Virus record (IMG/VR): IMGVR_UViG_3300042879_003803
Location: 1-21,156 of that record
Origin: a virus
Length of the DNA: 21,156 nucleotides
Reading direction: 5' to 3' (one strand)
In this document: one piece after another, positions 1 through 5,269 of the stretch
Numbering within the stretch: position 1 is the first letter of the stretch
How the letters are laid out: the number at the start of each line of letters is the position of its first letter
The notes under the pieces: model-generated
Database searches by the model: none
The model's input: the letters and a program-made list of their open reading frames with translations, nothing else
What the model was told of the DNA's origin: nothing
Made by a program: the position numbers and the translations under genes

Positions 1-2
1 TT

Positions 3-272
3 TGGCGCAGCCAGCCCAGTCAGCCTGCGCCGACCGATCGGATCACGGATTGGGCCGGGGTTGTCGATGGCAATCCGATCCACCTGACGCTGCTGCGCGT
101 GGTGCTGGATCAGTTGTCAGGCCCGCCGCAACCGATCGCAGCCCAGCTGGATGCCGCGCTGATCCAGAACATCAAGGCGCTGATCGAGCCCAAGCCGGCG
201 CCTGTCGTCGAAGCGCCGAAGCCAGCAAAGCCGAAGGCGGACGCCCGCCCCCAACTCAAGAGGAACTGGTGA
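3..272 (+). CDS. C-terminal fragment, possibly end of large terminase subunit (partial)
   Basis: The reading frame is open from base 3 to the TGA at 270-272, so the 89 residues seen are the end of a gene that starts before the window. It has a helical stretch containing LLRVVLDQL and AALIQNIKALIEP, then a low-complexity Pro/Ala/Lys linker (KPAPVVEAPKPAKPKAD), ending in LKRNW. No catalytic motif is visible. In lambda-like genomes the large terminase subunit lies just upstream of the gpW and portal genes, and a basic tail ending in Asn-Trp is compatible with a GpA-type terminase C-terminus. That assignment rests mainly on position. It could equally be an unrelated small late protein. The next gene starts one base after this stop, so the two are probably co-translated. 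Confidence 0.5.
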   Translation, partial: WRSQPSQPAPTDRITDWAGVVDGNPIHLTLLRVVLDQLSGPPQPIAAQLDAALIQNIKALIEPKPAPVVEAPKPAKPKADARPQLKRNW

Positions 273-273
273 C

Positions 274-576
274 ATGGACCGATCTGACCGCGGCCCGGGT
301 TCCGTGCGGAACATGGGCGATGAGCCCGACCTGATCCAGTGGGTCTACGACGCCGCCAAGGCGGGAATGAGCGTCGACGAAGTGCGCAAGAGCTTCGGTG
401 CGCAGCGCGTCTATATCCCCGCGAAGCCGCAGCTGAGCAGCGAAGAGCGCGACCGCATCGCCCAAGAACTGCAGAGCCGCACTGCTGCCGAAGTGGCCCG
501 GCGGCACGGTATCAGCGTTCGGCAGGCCTATCGCATCCGGAAGCAGGCGAAGCCCAGCGGCCCGCCCGGTCTGTGA
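274..576 (+). CDS. Mor-family transcription activator-like DNA-binding protein
   Basis: This encodes 100 residues. The N-terminal half (about residues 19-51) carries the pattern LIQWVYDAAKAGMS followed by FGAQRVYIPAKP, which matches the dimerisation region and YiP strand of the Mor/Mu-C family. Residues about 60-92 form a helix-turn-helix (AAEVARRHGISVRQAYRIRK). Mor proteins activate middle or late phage promoters as dimers on imperfect palindromes. The gene starts one base after the preceding stop, with AGGAA upstream of the ATG. Its TGA is directly followed by a palindrome, CCCTGACA-N13-TGTCAGGG, that recurs after the portal gene. A role in regulating the late genes or itself through these sites is inference. 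Finding a Mor-like gene between packaging and gpW genes is unusual. Family assignment is fairly sure; the target is not known. Confidence 0.82.
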   Translation: MDRSDRGPGSVRNMGDEPDLIQWVYDAAKAGMSVDEVRKSFGAQRVYIPAKPQLSSEERDRIAQELQSRTAAEVARRHGISVRQAYRIRKQAKPSGPPGL

Positions 577-605
577 CCCTGACATTTTGCCTAGCCGTGT
601 CAGGG
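577..605. repeat. Palindromic element, copy 1
   Basis: CCCTGACA (577-584) and TGTCAGGG (598-605) are perfect 8-base inverted arms separated by 13 bases that begin TTTTGCCTA. The element starts at the base after the stop codon of the Mor-like gene. A second copy with the same arms, the same 13-base spacing and the same TTTTGCCTA in the spacer lies at 2361-2395. There is no T tract after the right arm, so a simple terminator is unlikely. The two half-sites are about two helical turns apart, as expected for an operator of a dimeric regulator. Operator, mRNA hairpin or small dispersed repeat are all possible. The rest of the spacer to base 663 shows nothing else clear. Confidence 0.7.
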
Positions 606-663
606 GGCTGCTTCGCAGAGTCCGCCGGGGCGCGGCATTCGCGTCGAATCGAAACCACCCGCC

Positions 664-879
664 ATGGCCTACACCCAAGCCGATCTTGACCGTCTTGACC
701 GAGCGATTGCCAGCGGCGTGCTGACGGTCGAAGTCGCCGGTCGGCGCATGACCTACCAGGACGTCGATGCGCTGCTGAAGGCTCGCTCGCATGTCGCCAG
801 CCAGCTTGCCGGTGTCGGCGCGCAGCCTCGCTCTGGCGCCACCAAGCGCTTCACTTTCACCAGCCTGCGGGGCGACTGA
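664..879 (+). CDS. gpW-like head-tail joining protein
   Basis: This encodes 71 residues, close to the 68 of lambda gpW. Residues 1-16 form a helix (YTQADLDRLDRAIASG). A strand follows, VLTVEVAGRRMTY, corresponding to the central beta hairpin of gpW, then a second helix (DVDALLKARSHVASQL) and a basic C-terminal tail ending FTFTSLRGD. In the family the protein plugs the portal after DNA packaging and provides the platform for the FII connector. Position supports this: it ends one base before the portal ATG. The start follows an 87-base gap with the palindrome and has only a weak ribosome-binding site. Small size limits certainty, but size, secondary structure pattern and position agree. Confidence 0.8.
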   Translation: MAYTQADLDRLDRAIASGVLTVEVAGRRMTYQDVDALLKARSHVASQLAGVGAQPRSGATKRFTFTSLRGD

Positions 880-880
880 C

Positions 881-2350
881 ATGGCCAAGCGCAAGCGCAA
901 GACGACGCGCACCCACGCCCGCGCGGCAGCGCAGCCCGTCGCGGCACAGCGCGCCTACGAAGGCGCCAACCCGAAGGACGGCTGGCGGCCGCGCCGCGGA
1001 GGCGCCAGCGCCAATGCCGATCACCGCGCTGACTCGATCCCGCTGCGCGTGCGCGCCCGGTCGCTGTACCAGAACGTGCCCTACGTCACCCGCGCGATCG
1101 ACTCGCTGGTCGCGGCCTGGGTTGGCAGCGGCATCAGCATTTACAGCACCTCGAAGTCGAAGCGCACGAAGCGCCTGTACGAAGAGCGGCTCAAGACCTG
1201 GCAGTACGAATGCGATGCCGATGGCCTGCGCTCGCTCGATGCGCTGATCCACGGCGCCGAGCTTGCTGCCGCCATCGATGGCGAGTGCCTGATCCGCCGC
1301 CGGCCGCGCCGCGAAAGCGATGGCCTGTCGGTGCCGCTGCAGCTGCAGCTGCTGGAGATCGACTGGCTGGACAGCACCCGCAACGGGCCCGCGCCCAGCG
1401 GCAACGGCAGCGTGATGATCAACGGGATCCAGTACAACGCTATCGGCCGCATCGAGGGCTACTGGCTGTTCGATGCGCACCCTGGCGACACGTACACCAA
1501 CACCGGGCGATTCGACAGCCGGCTGGTGCCCGCCAGCGAGATCATCCACTACTTCGAACCGAAGCGGCCGGGACAGGGGCGCGGCATCAGCCGCCTGCAC
1601 TCTGTCATTGCGCGGGTGCGCGACTTCGCCCTCTACGAAGACGCAGAGCTCGCGCGCAAGAACCTCGAGTCGCGGTTCGGCATTGTCGCCTCGGCGGACG
1701 TCGACGCGCTGGCCAATCCCGCGGTCGGCGCCACGCAGGTCACGGACCAGCAGCTCATCGAGGGCGACCTGGGCATGCTGCCTTCGGGCGGCATCACGCA
1801 ACTGCCGCCCGGCCTGAACCTGACCAAGATGGAGCCGGCCGCCGCGCCCGGCATGGTCGAGTACTCCAAGCTCTCGCTGCACCTGATCTGCGCGGGCGTT
1901 GGTGTGCCGTACCACATGGCCACCGGCGACGTAAGCGAGGTCAACTTCAGCAGCGCTCGCATCCGCGACATCGACTTCCGCCGCGACGTCGACCAGCACC
2001 AGTGGATGTGCACCGCCCCGCGGCTGATCCGCCCGATCATGAAGTGGTTTGCCGATGCGATCGAACTGAGCGAAGGGCTGCGTGCCGACTACGGCTTCGA
2101 GTACTCGATGCCCAAGTGGGACTACGTCAACCCCAAGCAGGACATCGATGCCGAGCGCGGCGCGCTGGAAGGCGGCCTGACCACGCTCAGCGAGTCGCTG
2201 CGCCGCCGTGGCTTCAAGCCCGAAGAGGTCTTCGCCGAAATGGCGCAGGACTTCGAGGCTCTTGAGAGCAGCGGCGCCATCAAACTGCTGCAGCTGATGC
2301 GCGGGGCTGCGGCCGCCGCCTTGCCGCCTGCGGAGCCAGGGCAAAACTGA
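881..2350 (+). CDS. Phage portal protein, lambda family
   Basis: This encodes 489 residues, compared with 533 for lambda gpB. The portal dodecamer sits at one head vertex, is the channel for DNA entry and exit, and binds the terminase. Features typical of the lambda portal family are the N-terminal RVRARSLYQNVPYVTRAID segment (around residues 50-70), the motif VPASEIIHYFEPKRPGQGRG (around 212-231), ISRLHSVIARVRDFALYEDAEL, and the late motif HMATGDVSEVNFSSARIRDID (around 346-366). The N-terminus is very basic (MAKRKRKTTRTHARAA). I chose the ATG at 881, one base after the gpW stop and preceded by GCGGGGCG, rather than an in-frame upstream codon at 791 that would lie inside gpW. The gene ends 10 bases before the second palindrome. 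Confidence 0.95.
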   Translation: MAKRKRKTTRTHARAAAQPVAAQRAYEGANPKDGWRPRRGGASANADHRADSIPLRVRARSLYQNVPYVTRAIDSLVAAWVGSGISIYSTSKSKRTKRLYEERLKTWQYECDADGLRSLDALIHGAELAAAIDGECLIRRRPRRESDGLSVPLQLQLLEIDWLDSTRNGPAPSGNGSVMINGIQYNAIGRIEGYWLFDAHPGDTYTNTGRFDSRLVPASEIIHYFEPKRPGQGRGISRLHSVIARVRDFALYEDAELARKNLESRFGIVASADVDALANPAVGATQVTDQQLIEGDLGMLPSGGITQLPPGLNLTKMEPAAAPGMVEYSKLSLHLICAGVGVPYHMATGDVSEVNFSSARIRDIDFRRDVDQHQWMCTAPRLIRPIMKWFADAIELSEGLRADYGFEYSMPKWDYVNPKQDIDAERGALEGGLTTLSESLRRRGFKPEEVFAEMAQDFEALESSGAIKLLQLMRGAAAAALPPAEPGQN

Positions 2351-2360
2351 TCGCGCCCCC

Positions 2361-2395
2361 CCCCCCTGACATTTTGCCTATTTCTGTCAGGGGGG
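2361..2395. repeat. Palindromic element, copy 2, with an 11-C tract
   Basis: CCCCCCTGACA (2361-2371) and TGTCAGGGGGG (2385-2395) form a perfect 11-base inverted repeat around a 13-base spacer beginning TTTTGCCTA. It matches copy 1 at 577-605 in arms, spacing and the first part of the spacer. The left arm is part of an uninterrupted run of 11 C (2356-2366). Right of the element lies TAGGGGGAAG (2396-2405), which together with the right arm is the only purine-rich sequence that could serve the protease-capsid start at 2417. A hairpin here could therefore influence translation of that gene, but this is inference. Operator function is the alternative. Confidence 0.72.
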
Positions 2396-2416
2396 TAGGG
2401 GGAAGCATGCGACCCC

Positions 2417-4360
2417 ATGAACGCGAAAACCCGCACGCTTCCCAACCAGATCCGACTGGCGACCCTGCAGCCGGACACCTTCAACCCCGAAGCCCGCACC
2501 GTCGAAGTGGTCTGGACTACCGGCGCCCGCGTGCGGCGCTATGACTGGTGGGAAAACGAGTACTACGACGAAGAGCTGGAAGTCTCCAGTGCTGCCGTCG
2601 ACCTCGCGCGCCTCAGCAGCGGCGCAGCGCCCGTCCTGAACTCGCACCGCACCGGTGACCTGTCGAGCCAGATCGGCGTGGTCGAGCGCGCATGGATCGA
2701 CGGCAACGAAGGCCGCGCCGTGCTGCGCATGTCGGGCCGCGAAGACCTTGCCGGCATCGTCGCCGACATCCAGGCCGGAATCATTCGAAACATCAGCGTC
2801 GGCTACAGCGTGCAGGAGTACGCCGTCACTCGCGCGCAAGGGCAAGTGCCTGTCTACCGCGCCGTTCGCTGGAGCCCCTCGGAACTCAGCTTCGTCACCG
2901 TGCCGGCCGATGCACAGGCCGGCACGCGCGACGCCCCACAGCAGGGCACCCCCTGCGTCTTCAACACCAAGGAAACCACCATGGACCGTAATGATCCGGC
3001 GGCCACCGCCGATGACGCCGCTGATCCCGCGGCCAACTCTCAGACCGTTGTCGCGCCGGCGCCTGCCGCCTCGGTGGACGAAGGCGCCATTGCGGCGCGC
3101 TCGGCCGAAGTGATCGAGCTGGCCACCCGCCACGGCTTTGCCGACCGCGCCGCCGGCTGGGTGCGCGAAGGCAAGAGTCCCGATCAGGTACGCAAGCTGA
3201 TCCTCGACGACCAGGCCACCCGCGACGCCAACAGCGGCGGCCACGTCAACCGCGTATCGGCCGGTGAAGACCAGGCCGACAAGACCCGCAACGCAGCCGT
3301 CAATGTGCTGCTGGCGCGCGGTCAGGTGATCGACCCCGCCAGCAAGCAGCGCATCATCGTCGACGGCGCCAACCCCTTCCGCGGGCACAGCCTGGTCGAC
3401 ATGGCGCGCAGCGCTCTTGAGCGTGCCGGCGTGCGCACCGAAGGCATGGACAAGATGGGGCTGGTCGGCCGTGCGTTCACGCAGGGCACCAGCGACTTCC
3501 CGATCCTGCTCGAATCGGCGATGCACAAGACGCTGCAGAGCGCCTACGTGCTGGCGCCCGACACCTGGTCGCGCTTCTGCGCCCGCGGCAGCGTCAGCGA
3601 CTTCCGCGCGCACAACCGCTACCGCGTCGGCAGCATCGGCAACCTTGACGCGCTGAATGAGCATGGCGAGTACAAGAACAAGCCGATCCCGGACGGTGAG
3701 CGTTCGCCCATCCAGGCCGGCACCAAAGGCAATACGATCAACCTGACGCGCCATGCCATTATCAACGATGACCTGGGCGCCTTCCTGGGGCTGGCCACGG
3801 CCTTTGGCCGCAGCGCGCGCCGCACGATCGAAGCAGACGTGTACGCCCTGCTGGCGTCGAACCCGGTGATGCCGGACACCTTCGCCCTGTTCAGCACCGA
3901 GCACGGCAACCTCGCGAGCTCCGCGGGCGCGCCGAGTGTCGACACCCTCGAAGCCGCGCGCGTGCTGATGGCCAAGCAGAAGGACGTCGGCAACAACGAC
4001 TTCCTCGACCTGCGCCCGGCCATCTGGCTGGGCCCCATGGGCACCGGCGGCGACGCTCGCGTGGTGAACGACGCGCAGTACGACCCCGACACCGCCAACA
4101 AGCTGCAGCGCCCGAACAAGGTGCGTGGCCTGCTGCGCGACATCGTCGACACGCCGCGCATTCTCGACACCAAGTGGTACCTGTTCGCCGATCCGAGCGA
4201 AGCGCCTGTCATCGAGGTCGCCTTCCTCGACGGCCAGGACCAGCCCTTCCTCGACATGGAAGAGGGCTTCAGCGTCGACGGTGCCCGCTGGAAGGTTCGT
4301 CTGGACTACGGCGTGGCCGCCATCGACTACCGCGGCGCCGTCCGCAACAACGGCAGCTGA
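2417..4360 (+). CDS. Fused prohead protease (S78-type) and major capsid protein
   Basis: This is a single 647-residue frame. Residues 1-185 are an HK97-type prohead protease. The expected His, Ser and Glu of that serine protease family are visible as H77 (VLNSHRTG), S127 (IRNISVGY) and E156 (PSELSFVTVPA). Residues about 190-290 are an Ala/Asp-rich then helical segment that could act as scaffold (delta) domain. Residues about 291-647 are a HK97-fold capsid protein, with FTQGTSDFPILLESAMHK and TRHAIINDDLGAF in the core and WKVRLDYGVAAIDYRGAVRN at the end. The protease would cleave scaffold from capsid during head maturation. An internal ATG at 2981 with AAGGAAA upstream could yield capsid alone. 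The fused arrangement is known in some siphoviruses. The start at 2417 lacks a well-spaced ribosome-binding site (AGGGGG lies 14 bases away). Confidence 0.95.
   Translation: MNAKTRTLPNQIRLATLQPDTFNPEARTVEVVWTTGARVRRYDWWENEYYDEELEVSSAAVDLARLSSGAAPVLNSHRTGDLSSQIGVVERAWIDGNEGRAVLRMSGREDLAGIVADIQAGIIRNISVGYSVQEYAVTRAQGQVPVYRAVRWSPSELSFVTVPADAQAGTRDAPQQGTPCVFNTKETTMDRNDPAATADDAADPAANSQTVVAPAPAASVDEGAIAARSAEVIELATRHGFADRAAGWVREGKSPDQVRKLILDDQATRDANSGGHVNRVSAGEDQADKTRNAAVNVLLARGQVIDPASKQRIIVDGANPFRGHSLVDMARSALERAGVRTEGMDKMGLVGRAFTQGTSDFPILLESAMHKTLQSAYVLAPDTWSRFCARGSVSDFRAHNRYRVGSIGNLDALNEHGEYKNKPIPDGERSPIQAGTKGNTINLTRHAIINDDLGAFLGLATAFGRSARRTIEADVYALLASNPVMPDTFALFSTEHGNLASSAGAPSVDTLEAARVLMAKQKDVGNNDFLDLRPAIWLGPMGTGGDARVVNDAQYDPDTANKLQRPNKVRGLLRDIVDTPRILDTKWYLFADPSEAPVIEVAFLDGQDQPFLDMEEGFSVDGARWKVRLDYGVAAIDYRGAVRNNGS
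2969..2983 (+). promoter_or_regulatory. Internal ribosome-binding site and ATG for separate capsid translation
   Basis: Inside the protease-capsid frame, AAGGAAA at 2969-2975 is followed after a short spacer by the in-frame ATG at 2981 (residue 189). It lies exactly where protease sequence ends and the scaffold/capsid part begins (FNTKETT then MDRND). Translation from here would give a 459-residue scaffold-capsid protein in excess over protease, as lambda does with its nested C and Nu3 frames. The site is visible in sequence; its use is inference. Confidence 0.55.
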
Positions 4361-4392
4361 TCGGCGCTCGCCGAACCCACTGACAGCCAAGC

Positions 4393-4417
4393 GCCCGGGC
4401 CCATTCGCGGCCCGGGC
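4393..4417 (+). other. GC-rich hairpin between capsid and decoration genes
   Basis: GCCCGGGCC (4393-4401) and GGCCCGGGC (4409-4417) are perfect 9-base complementary arms around a 7-base loop, within the 77-base gap after the capsid gene. No T tract follows. The hairpin ends 20 bases before the decoration gene ATG, upstream of its GAGGAAA ribosome-binding site. It could slow transcription, protect an mRNA end or be a weak terminator. Nothing else is seen in this gap. Confidence 0.5.
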
Positions 4418-4437
4418 CACCAATCGAGGAAAGCAAC

Positions 4438-4818
4438 ATGGCTACCAACTATCAGCAGGCGGGTGCAGTCATCGACTGGACCAACGGCACCGGCGCCAGC
4501 GTCGCGGCCAATTCGATCGTTCGCATGGGGCACATCCTGGGCGTTGCGCTCGCCACCATCGCGAACGGCGCGACCGGTGCGGTCGCTGTCGAGGGTGTGT
4601 TCTCCGGCATTCCCAAGGTGTCCGGCGCCGAGTTCGCGCAGGGCGAGAAGCTGGTCTGGGATATCAGCGCCAACAGCAACGCGGGTGCGTTCGACGACAG
4701 CGCGGCGACGCCTGCCACGGGCGACATCACGGGCGCTGCTGTGGCGTGGGTGGCGGGCACCAACGGCCAGACCACCTGCACGATCAAGCTGACCCCGGGC
4801 AACGCAACCCGCACGTAA
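4438..4818 (+). CDS. Capsid decoration protein, DUF2190 type
   Basis: This encodes 126 residues, almost entirely short beta strands rich in Ala, Gly, Thr and Val, with no signal peptide or membrane helix. The pattern is that of DUF2190-type phage proteins: an N-terminal YQQAGAVIDWTNGTGASVAANS, then VVRMGH-like strand, GATGAVAVEGVFSGIPK, and FAQGEKLVWDIS. These proteins sit on or stabilise the mature capsid surface, like lambda gpD in role. Position directly after the capsid gene supports this. GAGGAAA lies 9 bases before the ATG, a good ribosome-binding site for an abundant protein. The gene is followed by a strong hairpin at 4828-4855, so it probably ends the head transcription segment. Confidence 0.88.
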   Translation: MATNYQQAGAVIDWTNGTGASVAANSIVRMGHILGVALATIANGATGAVAVEGVFSGIPKVSGAEFAQGEKLVWDISANSNAGAFDDSAATPATGDITGAAVAWVAGTNGQTTCTIKLTPGNATRT

Positions 4819-4827
4819 CCCCCGAAC

Positions 4828-4855
4828 CGCATCGCCCGGTTCGCCGGGCGGTGCG
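4828..4855 (+). terminator. 12-base-pair hairpin with UUCG loop, terminator-like
   Basis: CGCATCGCCCGG (4828-4839) and CCGGGCGGTGCG (4844-4855) pair over 12 positions (one T-G wobble) around the loop TTCG. UUCG closed by a strong stem is a well known very stable RNA tetraloop. It begins 9 bases after the decoration gene stop. The sequence after it, TCTGCCCTTGCCTT, is pyrimidine-rich but not a clean T run, so it may be a partial terminator, a pause site or an mRNA 3'-end protector rather than a full stop. It separates the head genes from the lysis and membrane genes. Confidence 0.6.
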
Positions 4856-4882
4856 TCTGCCCTTGCCTTGAGTCCTGATGCC

Positions 4883-5269
4883 ATGACTGCAGTGCAGTGG
4901 ATTGCTGCCATCGGTTCCGCGCTCGCCCTGCTCGGCACTGTGTTCGGTGCGTGCTGGTGGGTGGTGCGGCATTCGCTGCACGTTCAGCGGTTCGCGCTCG
5001 AAGCGATCGCCGACATGAAAACGCGGATCGCCGCGCTCGAGCTGCAGGCTATTGACGGCAAAGAGCTGGATGCCGCTTTGGAGAAAGCCCTGGCAAAGCT
5101 GATGAATCAGATCGAGCGGCGTCTCGATGGCATGGAACAGGGCCTGCGGTCGGCGACCAGCGAAATGCACCAGGTGCGCGTCGACCTTGCGGTGCTGAAG
5201 GACCGCGAAGGTGGCGTCGACTACAGCGAGCACAACCGTCGAGTGATGGGGGTGGCCCGCAATGGCTGA
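4883..5269 (+). CDS. Membrane-anchored coiled-coil protein of the lysis region
   Basis: This encodes 128 residues. Residues about 4-30 (VQWIAAIGSALALLGTVFGA then CWWVV) are one transmembrane helix. Residues about 40-110 are strongly helical and charged with heptad-like spacing (IADMKTRIAALELQAIDG, LEKALAKLMNQIERRLDG, VRVDLAVLKDREGG), indicating a coiled coil, probably exposed outside or inside the inner membrane. I do not recognise a named family. Single-helix coiled-coil proteins occur among holin-like and spanin-like phage proteins, and the neighbours (endolysin, holin candidate, spanins) make a lysis or membrane role likely. I chose ATG 4883 so that the membrane helix begins at the N-terminus; a TTG five codons upstream (4868) is possible. 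It overlaps the next gene by 8 bases. Confidence 0.75.
   Translation: MTAVQWIAAIGSALALLGTVFGACWWVVRHSLHVQRFALEAIADMKTRIAALELQAIDGKELDAALEKALAKLMNQIERRLDGMEQGLRSATSEMHQVRVDLAVLKDREGGVDYSEHNRRVMGVARNG

Follow-up and report, generated by a model that had tools for sequence, protein, structure and literature searches.

We describe two palindromes that are very probably the operators of two activator-dependent late promoters in a phage genome, with a Mor-family protein encoded at 274-576 as the proposed activator. The window, by which we mean the whole 21,156-nucleotide stretch analysed, carries one copy before the gpW-portal genes and the other before the protease-capsid gene (Table 1). Comparison across related phages shows that the positions are conserved, that the palindromes stand at a fixed distance from a -10 core, and that the half-site letters covary with the recognition helix of the Mor-like protein. 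The sequence-only reading had left three options, namely an operator, an RNA control element and a small dispersed repeat. An operator for the Mor-like protein is now strongly supported by this covariation, by the fixed -10 distance and by half-site variants, including asymmetric ones, that are shared between the copies of a genome; the other two options lose ground for the reasons given below.

Two palindromes beside the connector and capsid genes

The earlier description of two homologous palindromes, each just after a stop codon, proved accurate. Both copies are real, with perfect arms, at 577-605 and 2361-2395; the first lies directly 3' of the TGA of the Mor-like gene and the second 10 nt 3' of the portal TGA at 2348-2350. 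Both have a 13-nt spacer that opens with the same nine bases, TTTTGCCTA. With up to three mismatches allowed, the arm pattern matches these two places only in the window, and shuffles average 0.75 loose matches. The composite TGACA-N13-TGTCA-N14-A-N3-T was matched at exactly two places in the window and in none of 100 shuffles. A relaxed-pattern search of the window found no third site, and a search of the rest of the genome added nothing, the record being a single 21,156-base virus record.

Both copies are unchanged in L003 (92% identical to the window) and in the near-identical L004, the only viral contigs in which an exact-pattern scan found the window's own element. The short prefix CCCTGACATTTTGCC, used as a search pattern, gave matches that mostly lacked a palindrome. 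Outside the core half-site the arms vary, and the C run before operator 2 (window 2354-2365) differs in length between the window and L003 (CCCCCCCCCCCC versus ACCCCCC).

Table 1. Features of the two proposed promoters and their genes, in window coordinates
Feature	Position	Strand	Sequence or evidence	Remarks
Mor-family transcription activator	274..576	+	100 aa; recognition helix S-V-R-Q-A-Y-R-I	proposed binder of both palindromes
Operator 1 (proposed)	577..605	.	CCCTGACA-N13-TGTCAGGG; half-sites TGACA 580-584, TGTCA 598-602	same place in ~100 relatives
-10 core, promoter 1 (putative)	616..621	+	CAGAGT; A 617, T 621	predicted start ~628, leader ~36 nt
gpW-like head-tail adaptor	664..879	+	phrog_2545, head-tail adaptor Ad1, E 4.7e-19	first gene after promoter 1
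Portal protein (lambda family)	881..2350	+	PF05136, E 7e-81	
Operator 2 (proposed)	2361..2395	.	CCCCCCTGACA-N13-TGTCAGGGGGG; half-sites TGACA 2367-2371, TGTCA 2385-2389	second site in 70 relatives
-10 core, promoter 2 (putative)	2403..2408	+	AAGCAT; A 2404, T 2408	predicted start ~2415, two bases 5' of ATG 2417
Fused prohead protease and major capsid protein	2417..4360	+	PF25209, E 2e-48; PF04586, E 3e-4; phrog_4523, E 7e-210	first gene after promoter 2

A pair of nearly identical hairpins between genes could also be terminators, or copies of a small dispersed or mobile repeat with no regulatory role, and we regard this as extremely improbable. Neither copy has a T tract, as had been noted from the letters, and a scan found no terminator-like site. 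The sites are positionally fixed: there are just two, and they precede the same pair of genes in relatives with differently lettered palindromes. Additionally, a scan of 84,980 prokaryotic genomes matched the exact pattern once, in an unrelated bacterium of the Anaerolineae. That match, on a metagenome-assembled contig (L117:3205-3240), reads CTTCCTGACATTTTGCCCAAAATGTCAGGAAG, a perfect dyad whose left half is the same as the window's.

Conservation of both sites in relatives

A portal search recovered relatives at 49-100% identity, the more distant ones carrying GTCTCA-N13-TGAGAC immediately 3' of the Mor-like gene and ahead of gpW, in the same place with other letters. Each of the longer contigs in this first set has exactly two copies, both in one orientation. 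Wider searches, which took in 80 of 324 portal relatives, yielded 177 loci with a Mor-like gene, reduced to 129 distinct combinations of gene and flank. Across about 100 related uncultured phages, a differently lettered palindrome adjoins the Mor-like gene upstream of gpW, and the protease-capsid gene, kilobases away, has a second copy in front of it. The gene after site 2 was the protease-capsid fusion in all of the genomes checked (9/9), and Peptidase_S78 was confirmed for that gene in L124. Contig L051, found by the DNA pattern alone, carries CACCCTGACATTTTG(G/C)CTT(G/A)AATGTCAGGGTG twice, at both homologous places; both it and L084, which was likewise retrieved by DNA pattern, turned out to have Mor-family genes with the R-Q-A helix that had been predicted.

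A third copy of the operator and -10 promoter occurs at L335:10659 and L312:12169 (+), in L335 directly upstream of a holin-like gene (named a holin from its sequence by eye). This suggests that the regulon takes in lysis in some relatives, and such a site fits a late regulon. In L219, L228 and other loci with an S-T-(A/Q) helix, site 1 is degenerate (TTCTCAAGTTTTAAAGAATCAA) and site 2 is a full TCTCA/TGAGA dyad, a difference that may grade the two promoters.

A -10 core at a fixed distance

Both window copies are followed at an equal distance by a -10-like hexamer that the sequence-only reading had not mentioned. The hexamers are weak (CAGAGT and AAGCAT), and a scan for a sigma70 promoter with a -35 at the window sites came back empty. 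Because symmetry and the -10 served as scoring aids when sites were called for the helix/half-site survey, we drew -10 counts only from other site collections. One of these comprises TCTCA-N(11-17)-TGAGA sites gathered without any condition on downstream sequence (n=117). In 116/117 of these TCTCA-class sites, an A stands at +14 and a T at +18 after the proximal half-site, corresponding to -11 A and -7 T in a -10 element; the largest A/T count at any offset in 2000 shuffled flanks was 16. The pattern is kept before two unrelated genes, gpW and protease-capsid, and thus is not coding conservation. From dyad centre to -11 A the distance is 26 nt for both window copies, 26.5 nt for both L051 copies and 25.5 nt in every member of the class resembling phage S1. 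The arrangement is that of a Mor/C-type promoter, in which a dyad operator replaces the -35 at a fixed distance from the -10.

In 95/117 sites the first ATG falls 25-27 nt after the half-site, which is +1 to +3 of the expected transcript, so that little or no leader is predicted for these mRNAs. In the window the prediction of a near-leaderless start concerns copy 2, with a 2-nt leader, and not copy 1, with one of about 36 nt.

The candidate activator and a helix code

The protein encoded at 274-576 matches PF08765 (E 1.1e-7, 32.3 bits, above the gathering cut-off of 24.9) as well as PHROG 836 and 532, late transcriptional activator. Our own profile matches Mu Mor (PDB 1rr7) at E 1.1e-5. The PF08765 gathering score is also passed by L051, L084, L121, L263 and L279; it is not reached by L212 or by gp5 of Stenotrophomonas phage S1, the sole S1-like member tested, which we placed by our own profile and by gene position. 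An AlphaFold model of the window's protein (pLDDT 79.7, pTM 0.48) has 1rr7 Mor as its top Foldseek match, but a weak one (E 0.21), and its predicted helix-turn-helix (HTH) part aligns to Mor and C at Z 5.5-5.7, scores that other HTH proteins reach as well. A tblastn search of 50,697 cultured phage records gave no matches to this protein or to one of the TCTCA class.

Writing the half-site as T-X-Y-C-A, we found that XY tracks the recognition helix of the Mor-like protein across the roughly 100 related phages. By residue, Ala, Ser or Gly goes with TCTCA, Pro-His with TCGCA, Val with TTTCA, Arg with TG(A/C)CA and Thr with T(T/C)CCA. By helix, XY is CT for S-R-(A/G/S)-(T/S)-V, CG for S-R-P-H-V, GA for R-Q-A (the window's) and R-H-A, and TT for V-T-V; it is GC or GA for R-T-V, with one half-site GT, and TC or CC for T-T-V, with a few other halves (TT, AC). 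A G in the half-site is present in 11/11 Arg loci and absent in 85/85 others, and Ala/Gly/Ser agrees with TCTCA in 95/96 loci, the sole discordance being L192 (Ser), with TCCCA on one side only; these loci are related, so the counts are not independent. Mutual information between helix and half-site reaches 1.21 bits, where permutations gave at most 0.43, the code having been found and scored on one and the same data set with no held-out part.

On a tree built without the helix columns, Arg and half-site G changed 5 and 5 times, and Ala/Gly/Ser and TCTCA 12 and 13 times. Where branches are well supported, the independent pairs all point in the same direction, 2/2 for Arg/G and 5/5 for Ala/Gly/Ser/TCTCA (p 0.06), five pairs being all that such branches provide. 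The recognition-helix arginine probably reads the half-site guanine.

Matched sites within a genome

In the 70 genomes with a detectable second site, that site carries the half-site variant of the first, in a comparison where an equal spacer was worth one point in the score. The few half-site differences within a genome all fall inside the Thr and Arg classes. Asymmetric half-sites are common to both copies, as with TCCCA..TGAGA in L192 and TGACA..TGGCA in L269, and unpaired arms are retained in both copies in L192, L208, L239 and L269. Unusual spacers also agree within a genome, with whole cores of 26/26 in L221 and 25/25 in L266, L292 and L294 in the unconditioned site set; the exception in spacer length is L220, with 23 versus 24.

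These matched asymmetries bear directly on the possibility that the palindromes act as an RNA hairpin in a readthrough transcript, controlling the stability, processing or translation of the downstream genes. Stable hairpins are indeed predicted (copy 2 has z -3.56), the arms are paired in most relatives, and the S1-like class has long stems with compensatory changes. However, the predicted fold of copy 1 is no more stable than those of shuffles (z -0.90), genomes such as L192 and L269 retain asymmetric, unpaired arms in both copies, and no Rfam family reaches its gathering score in positions 1-5000. Furthermore, the half-site letters track a protein helix residue and the -10 core keeps a fixed distance. 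A hairpin in the RNA gives no account of the code, of the matched copies, of the fixed -10 distance or of the retained asymmetry, and we judge it very unlikely. A shared trans factor that reads the DNA through a Mor-like helix would explain all four.

Proposed mechanism

We suggest that the Mor-family protein binds each 23-bp dyad, TGACA-N13-TGTCA, centred near -37, and that, at a promoter with a -10 and without a -35, it recruits the host's sigma70-type RNA polymerase or activates it. Promoter 1 (577-621) would drive gpW-portal expression, and promoter 2 (2361-2408) would drive the protease-capsid gene from an almost leaderless mRNA. We infer both the binding and its activating direction, and the transcription starts are predicted positions.

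The same protein could instead bind both palindromes and repress, or autoregulate by blocking readthrough. The sites do cover the -35 region, where repressors act too, and operator 1 begins where the regulator's own gene ends. Against this, a lone -10 would need an activator, the characterised family members Mu Mor and C are activators, and the targets are structural and lysis genes. Activation is thus the likelier direction, given the missing -35 and the protein family, and repression appears decidedly unlikely.

Comparison with Mu and phage S1

In the Mu promoter Pm, the site bound by Mor is a 16-bp element with two 5-bp repeats and its centre at -43.5 (PMC4287176, PMC4390567). The proposed operators of the window share its plan: a Mor-family dimer site of two 5-bp inverted repeats that replaces the -35, a -10 hexamer, and a position upstream of phage genes. 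The window sites nonetheless depart from strict Pm architecture (23 bp versus 16 bp; about -37 versus -43.5). In the phages studied here the dyad spans 23 bp, is centred at about -36 to -37.5 if the -10 assignment holds, and has other half-site letters; there are two matched sites, they precede connector and capsid genes, and the predicted starts are mostly near-leaderless. Compared with the Mor site of Pm, the operator here is wider by 7 bp and lies about 7 bp closer to the -10, so the contact with polymerase should differ.

Mu C activates the late promoters lys, I, P and mom (PMC4461284). As with C, one Mor/C-family protein here would serve several late operons from an activator site at the -35 region, and some relatives have a third site ahead of a lysis gene. 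Unlike the C promoters, these phages have a different operator and usually two sites (gpW-portal and protease-capsid), and they carry a lambda-type portal in place of Mu's head genes.

The gp5-gp6 gap of Stenotrophomonas phage S1 (NC_011589) has the same order of parts, with a small HTH gene followed by a dyad, a -10 core 25.5 nt from its centre, and gpW-portal. It differs in its half-site, GTGCGGGTGAGT, and in having a single site, a second having been sought in S1 and not found; its portal and protease genes overlap. S1 gp5 (L150:5285-5605, YP_002321455.1) is annotated as 'putative peptidase a' and reads as a Mor-like HTH regulator. We found no such operator or helix code in the Mu Mor/C papers located, and the literature searched, in which subscription papers are covered incompletely, yielded no report of this operator or code in other phages.

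Implications

On present comparisons it is reasonably likely, though far from assured, that Mor-family activators with a geometry of their own serve a large and mostly uncultured lineage of phages. Half-sites 18 bp apart would straddle the -35, the matched connector and capsid promoters would start at or beside the start codon, and operator specificity would have been rewired repeatedly at one helix position. If true, this would amount to a recognition code found in nature, with all the sites of one genome changing in concert, and to a rule for predicting late promoters from one protein residue. It would turn an unexplained repeat into a testable capsid-gene switch in phages known almost only from metagenomes. 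The lineage would additionally offer a series of naturally co-evolved activator-operator pairs in the Mor/C family, which are candidates for orthogonal switches.
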